A program made the position numbers and the translations under genes. The notes below the pieces were generated by a model. It was not told the DNA's origin and made no database searches. It was given only the letters and a program-made list of their open reading frames with translations. Below are positions 43,700-61,066 of a stretch of 64,000 bases of DNA, one piece after another (within the stretch, counting starts at the first letter, position 1; every line of letters begins with the position of its first letter). The DNA is from Chitinophaga pendula (GTDB taxonomy: Bacteria > Bacteroidota > Bacteroidia > Chitinophagales > Chitinophagaceae): positions 1,240,001 to 1,304,000 of the forward strand of contig NZ_CP077769.1 in NCBI RefSeq assembly GCF_020386615.1. Reading direction: 5' to 3'.

Positions 43700-44584
43700 A
43701 TGAACCAAGTACCATTTGAAGGTGTGATCGCTTATCCGATCACACCCTTTGACGAACAGGAAAAAATTGATTTCCCCTTATTCCGGACGCTGGTAGAACG
43801 GCTGGTGGTTACCGGCGCGCAAGGTATTGCACCATTGGGCAGCACTGGTGTATTCTCTTATCTGAATGATGAAGAGAAAGAGCAGGTAGTGGCAGCAACG
43901 ATCTCGCAGGTAGCCGGGCGGGTGCCGGTGCTGGCGGGGGTATCCAACCTGACAACGGAGCGTACCATTCACCATGCGCAGTTCGCCGAACGTGCGGGTG
44001 CGGCGGCGGTGATGATCATACCCGTTTCTTACTGGAAGCTGTCGGATGACGAGATATTCTGCCACTATGAACGGGTGGCATCGGCCATTAACATCCCGAT
44101 CATGGCGTACAACAACCCGGGTACCAGTGGGGTAGATATGTCGCCGGCGCTGTTGAAACGTTTGTTGCAGATACCGAATGTGACGATGATCAAGGAGAGC
44201 TCCGGTGATGTGCAGCGAATGCATTACCTGCGTAAAGAGCTGGGAGAAGAGGTGGCATTCTACAACGGGTCCAACCCGTTGGCGCTGGCGGCCTTTACGG
44301 CTGGCGCCAGGGGCTGGTGTACCGCGGCGTCTAACCTGATCCCGGAGCTGAACCAGGGTTTATACCAGGCGATGCAGCAACGCGATCTGGCAAAAGCGCA
44401 TGACCTGTTCTATAAGCAGTTCCAGTTGTTACAGTTTATCAGTGCTAAAGGGTTACCGCGTACGATCAAGGCAGGTTTGCAGCTACAGGGTATTGCCGCC
44501 GGCAAACTGCGTAGCCCGCTGCAGCCATTGGAAACGGTGGATATGGATTACCTGGGATCTTTGCTGAAGGCTTGTGCTGCCTAA
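43700..44584 (+). CDS. Dihydrodipicolinate synthase family aldolase
   Basis: A 294-residue class I aldolase of the DapA/NanA superfamily. Seen: GVIAYPITPFDEQEKID, substrate-binding APLGSTGVFSYLNDEE (GSTGV in place of the usual GTTGE), YNNPGTSGVDM with the catalytic Tyr and the Schiff-base Lys in VTMIKESSGD (about residue 160). Members cleave or form 2-keto acids from pyruvate plus an aldehyde. The loop change and the neighbouring cupin and MocR genes argue for a catabolic aldolase or dehydratase of a sugar acid or hydroxy-amino acid rather than lysine synthesis (inference). Confidence 0.9.
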   Translation: MNQVPFEGVIAYPITPFDEQEKIDFPLFRTLVERLVVTGAQGIAPLGSTGVFSYLNDEEKEQVVAATISQVAGRVPVLAGVSNLTTERTIHHAQFAERAGAAAVMIIPVSYWKLSDDEIFCHYERVASAINIPIMAYNNPGTSGVDMSPALLKRLLQIPNVTMIKESSGDVQRMHYLRKELGEEVAFYNGSNPLALAAFTAGARGWCTAASNLIPELNQGLYQAMQQRDLAKAHDLFYKQFQLLQFISAKGLPRTIKAGLQLQGIAAGKLRSPLQPLETVDMDYLGSLLKACAA

Positions 44585-44641: not shown

Positions 44642-44719
44642 TGATGCAGGGATGGTCCATATTGTAATATTTTAGTATGCATGCAAGTGCTTATCGGACA
44701 GTGGGTTGTAAAATGTTTC

Positions 44720-44878
44720 TATAAGCGTTGTATAGCCGTTGTATAAGCAATGTATATCCGTTCTATAGTCGTTCTATATCCATTGTATACTCATTGTATA
44801 AGTGTGTATAGGCTTAGCTTATACAAAGGATATACGAATGTTATAGGAATGATACAGGAATGTTATAGGCAGGATATA
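44720..44878. repeat. Phased inverted TATA array, long copy
   Basis: TATA cores begin at 44720, 44731, 44742, 44753, 44764, 44775, 44786 and 44797 (every 11 bp). They then fall at 44807 (10 bp), 44820 (13 bp), 44831, 44842, 44853 (as TACA), 44864 and 44875 (every 11 bp). Left units read about CGTTGTATA or CATTGTATA; right units read TATACGAATG or TATAGGAATG, the opposite orientation. Each TATA from 44742 outwards mirrors one on the other side about 44810. It lies between the DHDPS-like and sigma-factor genes. The sequence GCATGCAAGT at 44679-44688 precedes it, as it does the copy at 60952. Confidence 0.9.
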
Positions 44879-44926
44879 AGAAAGTGGCGGACAGGAAAAG
44901 TTTATATATTTATACCTCATTACCAA

Positions 44927-45484
44927 ATGGGGGAGTATTTGAAGCATTTATCTGATCCGGCGTTACTCGTACTGTTACAGGAAGGGGATCCGTCAGCTTT
45001 CAGGGAGATCTATGACCGATACTGGGAAGTACTGTACCGGCAGGCATCGAAGAAGCTGGGCGACCGGGAAGACATCCGGGATATCGTCCAGGAGATATTC
45101 CTGTCTTTATGGAGGGGGCGGCAGGTGTTGCAGGTACAGGAGAGCTTACTACAATATCTCTATACAGCATTACGCTATAAGATCATCGATCATTACCGGC
45201 AGCGGGAGGTCAGGGTCCGTTATTACGAGGCGGTCTTTGTGACGGCAGACGATAGTATTGTGCCGGAAGCGCTTGGTTACCAGGAACTGAATAACCTGGT
45301 AGAAGCGGAGATCAGTGCCATGCCCCCCAAAATGAAAGAAGTATTCCTGTTAAGCCGTGATGAAGAACTGAATGCGGTGCAGATTGCCGCACGACTTTCT
45401 CTTTCCCACCAGACGGTACGTAACCAGATCAGTACCGCCCTGAAGCGCCTGCGTGCGCGACTGTCTGCCTACACTGCGCGTTAA
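44927..45484 (+). CDS. ECF RNA polymerase sigma-70 factor
   Basis: A 185-residue ECF sigma factor. The start at 44927 (MGEYLKHLSDPALLVLLQEG) is chosen; an in-frame extension back to 44750 runs through the repeat array. Region 2 shows AFREIYDRYWEVLYRQASKK and DIVQEIFLSLWRGR; region 4 shows MPPKMKEVFLLSRDEELN and AARLSLSHQTVRNQISTALK. Such factors in Bacteroidetes usually work with a FecR anti-sigma factor to switch on a SusC/SusD operon. Here the matching FecR-SusC-SusD set begins 1.7 kb downstream, separated by two other genes. Confidence 0.92.
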   Translation: MGEYLKHLSDPALLVLLQEGDPSAFREIYDRYWEVLYRQASKKLGDREDIRDIVQEIFLSLWRGRQVLQVQESLLQYLYTALRYKIIDHYRQREVRVRYYEAVFVTADDSIVPEALGYQELNNLVEAEISAMPPKMKEVFLLSRDEELNAVQIAARLSLSHQTVRNQISTALKRLRARLSAYTAR

Positions 45485-46251: not shown

Positions 46252-47103
46252 ATGATCAATCCGGCGACCGGTATACTGGCATTCAGGGTGATGGATGTGG
46301 AGGACGGGTATTATTTCCGGGAATTACAGCAACAACATTGTTATACTATGTTGCTGGTGACAGCGGGGAGTGGGCAGTTGAATGTTGATTTTTCGGAGTA
46401 TATGTTTGAGGCAAATACCCTGTTATGTTTTTCGGTATATCAGCCTTTTCTGATCCGGGAGCGGGAGTGTATTAAGGGCGTGCTGATACAGTTCCATCCT
46501 GATTTTTTCTGTATACATAAGCATCAGGAGGAGGTGTCTTGTAATGGTATACTTTTTAACGATGTTTATGGGTCGCCGATGGTCAATATAGACACGGCAG
46601 GCTTGCAGGCATTGCTGGGGTTGGTCGCGCAGTTTAAGACGGAGATGCAGCGGCCGGCGTTAGGGCAATATGAGCTGTTGGTATCTTATCTGAAGGTCTT
46701 TCTGATCATGGCGTCGCGGATGAAACTGGCTGTTTGTCCGGATATAGTGTCTGACGGCGGGCCGGCGCCCTTCCTGTTGAAGCATCTGAAAGAGGCCATT
46801 GAGGAGCATTATCGTACCAGGCATAGTCCGGCGGACTATGGTGCTTTACTGAATATATCTCCCAAGGCGTTGAACAAGCTGGCTAAAAGTCATTTTAACC
46901 GTACGTTGCGGGATCTGATTGCAGAACGGATCATTATTGAAGCGAAACGGGAGCTTTACTTGACATCGAAGCCGGTGAAGGCTATAGCCTATGAGCTGGG
47001 TTTTACGGATGAGTTTTATTTCAGCCGGTTCTTTAAGAGTAATGCCTCGGTGTCGCCACAGCTTTACCGTACGACGGTGGGCATGGCCAAAGGGGAGGTA
47101 TAA
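46252..47103 (+). CDS. AraC family transcriptional regulator
   Basis: A 283-residue regulator; the ATG at 46252 is preferred to a TTG at 46228. The N-terminal half is a cupin-like sensor (HCYTMLLVTAGSGQLNVDFS; KGVLIQFHPDFFC). The C-terminal helix-turn-helix pair is seen as ADYGALLNISPKALNKLAKS and VKAIAYELGFTDEFYFSRFF, ending VSPQLYR. It lies between the sigma-factor and FecR genes but its most probable target is the AhpD-like gene just upstream, through the direct repeats at 45512-45543. The stop is only 7 bp before a short TATA array. Confidence 0.9.
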   Translation: MINPATGILAFRVMDVEDGYYFRELQQQHCYTMLLVTAGSGQLNVDFSEYMFEANTLLCFSVYQPFLIRERECIKGVLIQFHPDFFCIHKHQEEVSCNGILFNDVYGSPMVNIDTAGLQALLGLVAQFKTEMQRPALGQYELLVSYLKVFLIMASRMKLAVCPDIVSDGGPAPFLLKHLKEAIEEHYRTRHSPADYGALLNISPKALNKLAKSHFNRTLRDLIAERIIIEAKRELYLTSKPVKAIAYELGFTDEFYFSRFFKSNASVSPQLYRTTVGMAKGEV

Positions 47104-47110
47104 TACCTGG

Positions 47111-47136
47111 TATAATAAGAGTATATTGGTTGTATA
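47111..47136. repeat. Short 11-bp-phased TATA run
   Basis: TATA begins at 47111, 47122 and 47133, exactly 11 bp apart, and the last unit reads GGTTGTATAGC like the left-arm units of the two large arrays. Three units could be a remnant or seed of that element; chance is possible at this size. Confidence 0.45.
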
Positions 47137-60951: not shown

Positions 60952-61066
60952 TATACTTGTTGCATATAGGTTGTATAAGCATTGTATAGTGATTGTATAT
61001 GCAACTATATGCGTTGCCTATACAATGACTATACGAATGGTATAGGATAACTACAGGAGAGCTATA
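60952..61066. repeat. Phased inverted TATA array, short copy
   Basis: Cores begin at 60952, 60963 (as CATA), 60974, 60985 and 60996 (every 11 bp). They continue at 61006 (10 bp), 61019 (13 bp), 61030, 61041, 61052 (as TACA) and 61063 (every 11 bp). The order of spacings, the position of the extra TATA 3 bp left of the centre and the TACA at the third unit of the right arm after the centre are the same as in the copy at 44720. GTGGCGGA follows both arrays. It lies between the tetR stop and a terminator, so it is probably in the tetR 3' untranslated region. Confidence 0.9.

Follow-up and report, generated by a model that had tools for sequence, protein, structure and literature searches.

What kind of element places fifteen TATA-type cores 11 bp apart in front of an ECF sigma factor gene, and does it belong to that gene? 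The question is raised by positions 44720 to 44878 of the window, i.e. the whole stretch of 64,000 nucleotides of the Chitinophaga pendula chromosome that was analysed. A sequence-only reading had described a large phased and inverted array at this place, and its fifteen cores, one of which is TACA, could be confirmed to the base (44720, 44731, 44742, 44753, 44764, 44775, 44786, 44797, 44807, 44820, 44831, 44842, 44853 [TACA], 44864, and 44875). The steps between them all measure 11 bp apart from a single 10-then-13 break, and the mirror pairs about 44810 were recovered as described (44797/44820, 44786/44831, and outward to 44742/44875), with core 44807 remaining unpaired inside the centre. 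The proposed reversal of the arms holds for the core positions, which are mirrored, but not as a simple inversion, because the spacer 4-mers keep their offset. The left CRTT and the right AATG stand at an equal offset after TATA in most units of the family arrays, and near reverse-complement spacers are found only innermost, in many copies. Runs of at least three exact cores occur within the window only at steps of 11 bp, its double 22 and, once, 18, when all steps from 5 to 24 bp are scanned. The comparison with shuffled sequence that the same reading had proposed gave 19 window matches to a three-core pattern at 11 bp (at most one mismatch), compared with a mean of 0.30 and a maximum of 2 in 100 shuffles.

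All parts of the element are given on the forward strand. The left arm (44720..44796) consists of seven 11-bp units, each composed of TATA and a 7-bp spacer that mostly reads NNCRTTS (TATAAGCGTTG ... TATACTCATTG). It is followed by a centre of 23 bp (44797..44819; TATAAGTGTGTATAGGCTTAGCT), which holds the unpaired core 44807, and by the right arm (44820..44878) with the units TATACAAAGGA, TATACGAATGT, TATAGGAATGA, TACAGGAATGT, and TATAGGCAGGA and a closing TATA. The initially assigned boundaries were correct for the array itself, but they missed a possible G-rich tail at 44879..44897 (AGAAAGTGGCGGACAGG), which by eye resembles, weakly at the window copy, the terminal unit GGARAGG-TGGACSTGAG of the one-armed R-type copies described below. 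The 29 nt preceding the first unit (44691..44719) represent the leader, which in the window copy is a poor match to the leader motif TTGATNATCARNNNRTTR. A second array of the family, belonging to the short class, is located at 60952..61066 (centre TATATGCAACTATATGCGTTGCC) and has the same orientation as the first one. Three further TATA cores at 11 bp lie at 47099-47136 between the genes for an AraC-type regulator and a FecR-type protein; they show no orientation motif and are possibly a remnant or a chance occurrence.

A dispersed repeat family in the C. pendula chromosome

The search of the host genome that had been suggested as a check revealed many array copies in the 7.66-Mb chromosome. 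Four cores at 11 bp gave 213 overlapping matches, compared with none in the reversed control, and the layout with the 23-bp centre was found without mismatch at 47 places (hand count of the listed places) and with at most one mismatch in 83 matches, some of which are shifted readings of one and the same array. The window array is hence one member of a dispersed intergenic chromosomal repeat family and not a one-off. The 53 arrays that were examined, i.e. 51 fetched regions and the two arrays of the window, are a part of this family, with at least one further array located at 6623815; the array at 47099, having no orientation, was excluded from all counts. The counts of folding, arm pairing, unit composition, and arm length further omit six arrays in which the 23-bp centre is absent.

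The 47 arrays with a 23-bp centre comprise 28 long and 19 short ones. Long arrays have five to ten units in the left arm and three to seven in the right arm, and the short class, as represented among the fetched regions, shows a near-constant sequence at separate loci. Large arrays mostly span 93-181 bp from the first to the last core. Left units mostly read TATA-NN-C[A/G]TT-[G/C] (217 left-arm units of the 28 long arrays) and right units mostly TATA-[C/G]G-AATG-N, with TACA replacing TATA mainly in the third and fourth right units; the constancy of the TATA core is partly circular, since it was built into the search patterns. A leader motif of about the form TTGATNATCARNNNRTTR is phase-locked 29 or 40 nt ahead of the first unit in many of the 47 arrays. 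The long arrays L025 and L060, which are located at distant loci, have the inner units and the right flank in common, a sign of copying between loci.

A profile search uncovered a second form of the element, namely the R-type copies, which are right arms without left arm or centre that end in TACAGGARAGG-TGGACSTGAG. This ending occurs at 81 places with at most three mismatches, compared with one in the control; the places correspond to about 65 loci, and four of the 81 places are no more than 250 bp away from one of the full arrays that were fetched. Tandem repeats of 44 bp (4 x 11) make up several R-type loci, and at 5350469-5350665 the repeat is present five times. Higher-order repeats of 44 bp were also seen at G000:C1:4485436-4485544, 7121947-7122055, and 1054041-1054149, where each repeat is composed of four 11-bp subunits, one of which is TGGACSTGAGG without a TATA core. 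The absence of the left arm and the centre from the R-type copies identifies the phased polar array as the constant part of the family; the hairpin form with its two arms seems to elaborate on this part.

Strand polarity and gene context

The orientation of the arrays agrees with the sign of the local GC skew in 51 of the 53 arrays examined, a proportion whose simple binomial value overstates the certainty, because the copies are related and linked along the chromosome. The two exceptions lie at skews of +0.058 and -0.007. The skew served as a proxy for the leading strand, which is generally the G-rich one. R-type loci behave in the same way (28 of 30; exceptions at -0.027 and 0.000), and 25 of 27 separate loci agree when the three that duplicate a tandem neighbour are set aside. 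The longer arm, a criterion that is blind to the spacers, follows the skew in 26 of the 28 long arrays; arm length is equal in nine of the 19 short arrays and has the reverse direction in the other ten, which are all alike. A mutation bias acting on a symmetric array was considered as the cause of the polarity and rejected, as the spacer-blind longer arm also follows the skew. In a sample of 844 kb, a profile trained on other arrays retrieved 16 elements, 15 of them in agreement with the skew; this sample is not fully blind, because its 400-kb stretch was chosen for holding arrays, and its 19 control regions alone (380 kb) contain four elements.

The skew itself extends well beyond the arrays: up to a distance of 3.5 kb, each bin of 500 bp has an oriented mean of 0.17-0.25. 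At third codon positions it is seen whether the genes run along (0.35) or against (0.51), and gene direction is therefore not its cause. One contiguous stretch of 400 kb (G000:C1:1500001-1900000) allows the polarity to be followed along the chromosome: it flips from one segment to the next, and the arrays do so as well. A small segment of opposite skew, about 20 kb in length (about 1.625-1.645 Mb), is no exception, its array keeping the polarity of the segment. Array 1875510 is located where the skew is near zero. The chromosome (1500001-1900000; window about 20-34 kb) presents itself as a mosaic of opposite-skew segments and a low-skew, low-GC stretch, and looks as if it had been inverted many times.

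The immediate neighbours of the window array, both outside the element and both on the forward strand, are a gene of the dihydrodipicolinate synthase family (43700..44584) and the ECF sigma factor gene (44927..45484), the start codon of which was inferred at 44927. The mechanically predicted open reading frame of the sigma factor starts at 44750, inside the array, and an annotation that places the start codon within 44750-44926 may be too early. The array ends 48 bp ahead of the inferred start codon, a distance that would suit a regulator-binding array specific to the promoter of this sigma factor. The gene context of the whole family speaks against such an operator and against any special tie to the sigma factor, because its arrays adjoin diverse genes in either orientation, so that we rejected this explanation as extremely improbable. 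According to a home-made gene caller, 52 large arrays are flanked by genes on both sides, with 16 (+,+), 13 (+,-), 11 (-,+), and 12 (-,-) neighbours, and one further array lacks a called gene on one side. Ten of the 50 listed downstream neighbour proteins were scanned. Eight were assigned to seven families (DsbA-like protein, acetyltransferase, Na/H exchanger, LysE translocator, DinB [twice], TsaD, and M23 peptidase) and two to none, and no sigma factor was among these ten.

Large arrays accordingly ignore gene direction. The R-type copies show a different picture, with 0, 8, 6, and 13 of the 27 separate loci in the orientations (+,+), (+,-), (-,+), and (-,-), compared with 20, 14, 28, and 31 of 93 control gaps drawn from regions with an absolute skew of at least 0.1. 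The downstream gene is opposed at 21 of the 27 R-type loci but in only 45 of the 93 control gaps, i.e. R-type copies tend to sit past the 3' end of an opposed gene.

Spacer dialects and conservation in relatives

Within the genus, 39 of the 79 genomes contain four cores at 11 bp. Five cores were found in 14 of 244 genomes (nine of 92 genera) of the family sample, and six in three of 296 genomes of the phylum sample, the own genome being included each time; the low count in the phylum sample indicates that arrays are rare outside some genera. A six-core scan of named contigs yielded at least 119 stretches, and 63 of the 80 that are listed with titles were judged by these titles to be Bacteroidota. 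By eye, many of the Bacteroidota stretches have varied spacers, and many of the non-Bacteroidota ones are AT-rich repeats with few kinds of units. The reversed-pattern control of the genus survey is unclean where a unit also reads ATAT every 11 bp (G015: 21 vs 76). Contigs of Prevotella or Prevotellaceae metagenome-assembled genomes (MAGs) contain short six-core arrays with inverted ends (L213, L215, L255, and L264; aatttgg...ccaaatt or ggaaagt...actttcc), which are possibly a REP-like family, and very long arrays with 20-23 TATA cores and varied spacers are found in the Bacteroidaceae MAG RGIG8161 (L260, L274, and L281).

Every genome examined has its own spacer dialect. Some arrays of G015, G035, and G056 are near-perfect inverted repeats by eye, and some of G002, G052, and G053 are direct repeats (four loci fetched in G052, three in G053). 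The central 10/13 break that the sequence-only reading had included in its search pattern is a recurrent feature of the own genome but is wanting in the relatives, apart from a single match to the 23-bp layout in one of nine genomes searched (G032), which has a different type of unit. The innermost cores of other dialects are 13, 27, or 28 bp apart by eye, and the break thus appears, on the sequences compared, to be specific to the C. pendula dialect. An exact pattern of two own right-arm units was absent from the genome-contig collection, from which the own genome was possibly excluded, and weaker matches to the window array were obtained in G022, G026, G028, G044, G048, and G056. A test of mirror symmetry, low-powered by design, gave p<=0.05 for one of 94 arrays of other genomes and was set aside as evidence. 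Polarity could be followed in one relative: two arrays of G053 lie in skewed flanks and carry their G-rich units on the strand that is rich in G, whereas the flank of the third is skewless. Mutation bias could equally give this pattern; the skew of G035 and G015 is too low for this comparison.

Conserved copies in syntenic positions, which the same reading had named as support for a real element, exist in relatives but were not found for the window array itself, to which BLAST aligned no array at the equivalent locus of the nearest relative compared (only about 70% identical). The best example is array L174 of G015, which occupies the same place in G016, G017, G021, G069, G070, and G054, i.e. 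in seven species altogether; the flanks, but not the array, also match in G032 and G066. Mean pairwise identity at this one locus is 0.93 for the array, compared with 0.56 and 0.67 for its flanks (seven genomes). Eight aligned copies of G015 (L174-L181) exhibit a conserved tail past the hairpin (TTATCTCACCGAAT...CTATGGTA...CTTTACAAGGACT). Another example are the near-identical strains G052 and G053, which have three array loci in common (96.7-99.5% identity over three aligned stretches). At one of these loci seven cores in one strain correspond to 11 in the other, all of them TATA, with few spacer changes and otherwise identical aligned flanks.

Comparison with known elements and possible functions

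The sequence-only reading knew of no described element with this layout, and the arrays indeed constitute a real dispersed repeat family, strictly phased and strand-polar, of which searches of the open-licence PMC literature found no description. KOPS are a strand-polar chromosome motif, REP palindromes are linked to RAYT, and the TATA-tetrad nucleosome-binding sequences are eukaryotic with a phase of about 10 bp. With the latter the arrays share a TATA that is phased with the helix, and they have the single orientation of KOPS when local GC skew is taken as a proxy for the leading strand; they differ from RAYT-linked REPs in that the own genome has no match to the Y1 transposase (PF01797). 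KOPS and the Architecture IMparting Sequences (PMC5993296) likewise occur in many copies with a single orientation relative to the leading strand, but they are words of 8 bp, whereas the arrays are about 65-180 bp long and keep the polarity of their segment where the skew locally reverses. REP and BIME repeats are comparable as dispersed intergenic palindromic repeats with many copies, yet REPs are palindromes of 20-40 bp sorted by GTAG/CGTC ends in the part of PMC3733652 at hand and not long 11-bp arrays. The BrickBuilt MITE of Porphyromonas gingivalis resembles the family as an intergenic tandem minisatellite of Bacteroidota with leader and tail, whose unit number varies between strains at conserved loci, but its unit is a 23-nt direct repeat (array unit, 11 bp) with a consensus lacking TATA every 11 bp, it has IS5-type terminal inverted repeats, and polarity is unmentioned in the consulted part of its description (PMC4596501). 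REP/RAYT and BrickBuilt hence each fail on one defining feature.

The strong gyrase site of Escherichia coli and phage Mu (Mu SGS) shares with the large arrays two arms around a centre, an alternation of AT and GC with every helical turn, and a length of about 130-160 bp, and gyrase sites are over-represented in BIME-2 repeats, which provide intergenic examples. The E. coli motif, in the accessible part of the same source (PMC6379681), has two flanks of 47 bp around a centre that runs from -16 to 19; in the flanks GC changes every 10.75 bp and AT faces the protein; a periodic GC preference of 10-11 bp is also described, in the portion available, for the gyrases studied in PMC12324340. Degeneracy, a period of 10.75 bp, and a centre of 36 bp characterize this motif, whereas the arrays have a fixed TATA, a spacing of exactly 11 bp and a 23-bp centre, and many of their copies are one-armed and strand-polar. 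The differences in period, centre length, fixed core, and polarity are the reason why the array was not filed as a gyrase site.

Three explanations stand behind the DNA-level function that we prefer below. One A-form turn measures 11 bp, and a transcribed array could fold into a long helix in which each turn holds one UAUA; it would then serve as a structured RNA or as an RNA-processing site. This idea agrees with the folding of the motif-oriented strand, which is better than that of the complement in 47 of the 47 own arrays (window array: -46.4 kcal/mol, z -3.2; other strand: -30.9, z -2.7) and in seven of seven G015-group orthologs with 150-200 nt of flanks; the covariation score of these orthologs was reached by two of 500 shuffles, with three of 28 pairs altered on both sides, although ortholog folds and covariation refer to one locus of another species group and not to the window array, and template switching between the arms could explain the paired changes equally well. 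When the letters were shuffled inside the spacers, the mean fold z was -1.5 over the 28 long arrays, with three of them at or above zero or -0.1. The strand asymmetry is no longer decisive, since the G/T-rich bias of the own array regions creates G-U pairs on the oriented strand without selection and the oriented strand of the array alone folds better in only four of eight cases each in the low-skew genomes G015 and G035. The own arms, moreover, barely beat swapped ones (at best 32 of 5000 permutations for two units and 415 of 5000 for five), with the effect reversed at the fourth unit and nothing to be seen in the short class, and an Rfam search gave a best E of 0.57, with nothing close to a gathering score. 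Copies without a left arm, i.e. R-type and direct arrays, and the indifference of large arrays to gene orientation are ill suited to a shared transcript structure. We therefore rejected an RNA hairpin as the main function on the grounds of the regional G/T skew and the missing preference of low-skew array segments, and regard this explanation as decidedly improbable.

A mobile or formerly mobile non-autonomous repeat of the REP/MITE type, whose arrays are a recognition structure without host function, is a better candidate but still somewhat unlikely. Its spread through single-stranded DNA at replication forks would account for the strict strand bias, and it fits the 19 near-identical short-class copies at separate loci among those fetched, the conserved ends at fixed phase, the gene-independent polarity of large arrays, the conserved tail of the eight G015 copies, and the preference of R-type copies for the 3' end of an opposed gene. 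A TTGAT motif upstream of the arrays, which would suit an IS200/IS605-type target, had suggested IS200/RAYT mobility, but this candidate was dismissed given that the own genome has no PF01797 match. Y1 genes are present in 19 of the 79 genomes of the genus, and arrays occur in ten of these compared with 29 of the 60 others, hence there is no link between the two. Stable positions, namely one array fixed at one locus in seven species and three loci common to near-identical strains, also argue against mobility. BLAST with the low-complexity filter on found no match of the window array in plasmid or phage records, and an inspection by eye did not establish terminal inverted repeats or target duplications, the end motifs being too few (GATAAG[C] at -68 in five and TTATC at +21 in about seven to eight of the 47 arrays). 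A neutral minisatellite with a unit of 11 bp, lengthened by slippage, carried to other loci by recombination and kept palindromic through template switching, would explain the different unit numbers of near-identical strains, the 44-bp higher-order repeats, spacers that are alike within but unlike between genomes, and the many non-Bacteroidota matches that are, by eye, AT-rich repeats with few kinds of units. It is at odds with an orthologous array that is far more conserved than its flanks, with cores that persist while the spacers diverge, and with the near-complete strand polarity in the own genome, which makes a mere by-product quite unlikely.

The sequence-only reading had left a protein-binding array, a transcript hairpin, and a nucleoid element side by side as possibilities. 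The evidence leans toward a DNA-level polar element, because the 11-bp phasing persists in copies that have no left arm and because it is GC skew, not the neighbouring genes, with which the orientation agrees. Our best guess at its function is a platform for wrapping or bending DNA: a chromosomal strand-polar repeat acting through helical phasing, an explanation that we prefer tentatively and that falls short of being probable. The array would work on double-stranded DNA, where a TATA step on approximately the same face of the helix at each turn could make each arm bendable in one direction. The arms would form the platform on which a DNA-wrapping protein settles, perhaps a nucleoid-associated protein or DNA gyrase, and the spacers, being richer in GC, would point outward. 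The inverted left arm, where present, would make this platform two-sided around a short centre, and the two-armed form might also give a hairpin or cruciform; orientation would have been set relative to replication before local inversions of the chromosome. Such a platform is suggested by R-type copies and the direct arrays of G052 and G053, which show phasing without a hairpin, by the TATA core that is kept in these strains while spacers drift, by the array identity that exceeds that of the flanks at the one locus L174, by a near-complete polarity combined with the gene neutrality of large arrays, and by the resemblance of the layout to the E. coli gyrase motif.

Several observations speak against this platform. 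The distance between the innermost cores is 23, 27-28, or 13 bp depending on the species and has no fixed helical phase, so that the two arms need not show the same face. Spacing is exactly 11 bp, where the phasing of B-DNA would by itself favour steps of 10 mixed with steps of 11, and copying of whole units could be the cause. If the opposite-skew segment of about 20 kb is an inversion, the orientation of the array may be irrelevant today. The paired changes of the arms point to pairing or template switching, neither of which is needed for wrapping, and the gene bias of the R-type copies is unexplained by this model. A further-reaching version, which we consider unlikely, is that directional phased TATA arrays are a chromosome-wide system of Chitinophagaceae and scattered other Bacteroidota; a dedicated protein that wraps DNA or forms filaments would read them, touching one core at each turn and co-evolving with the spacer dialect, and the arrays would mark strand polarity and organise supercoiling or segregation.

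The usual dispersed repeats of bacteria are short palindromes or remnants of mobile elements, and the array family differs from them by its exact helical phasing, a spacer that differs by species, and a near-perfect orientation with GC skew in the own genome, where its large form is indifferent to genes. Three questions become testable with it: whether some protein recognizes TATA phased at 11 bp, and which one; by what route a repeat acquires a single orientation with respect to replication; and whether supercoiling domains in Bacteroidota are set by phased arrays. Past inversions of the scrambled chromosome may moreover be recorded, fossil-like, in the polarity of the arrays and, if the chromosome-wide system were true, the TATA arrays would be a bacterial counterpart of helically phased nucleosome sequences.
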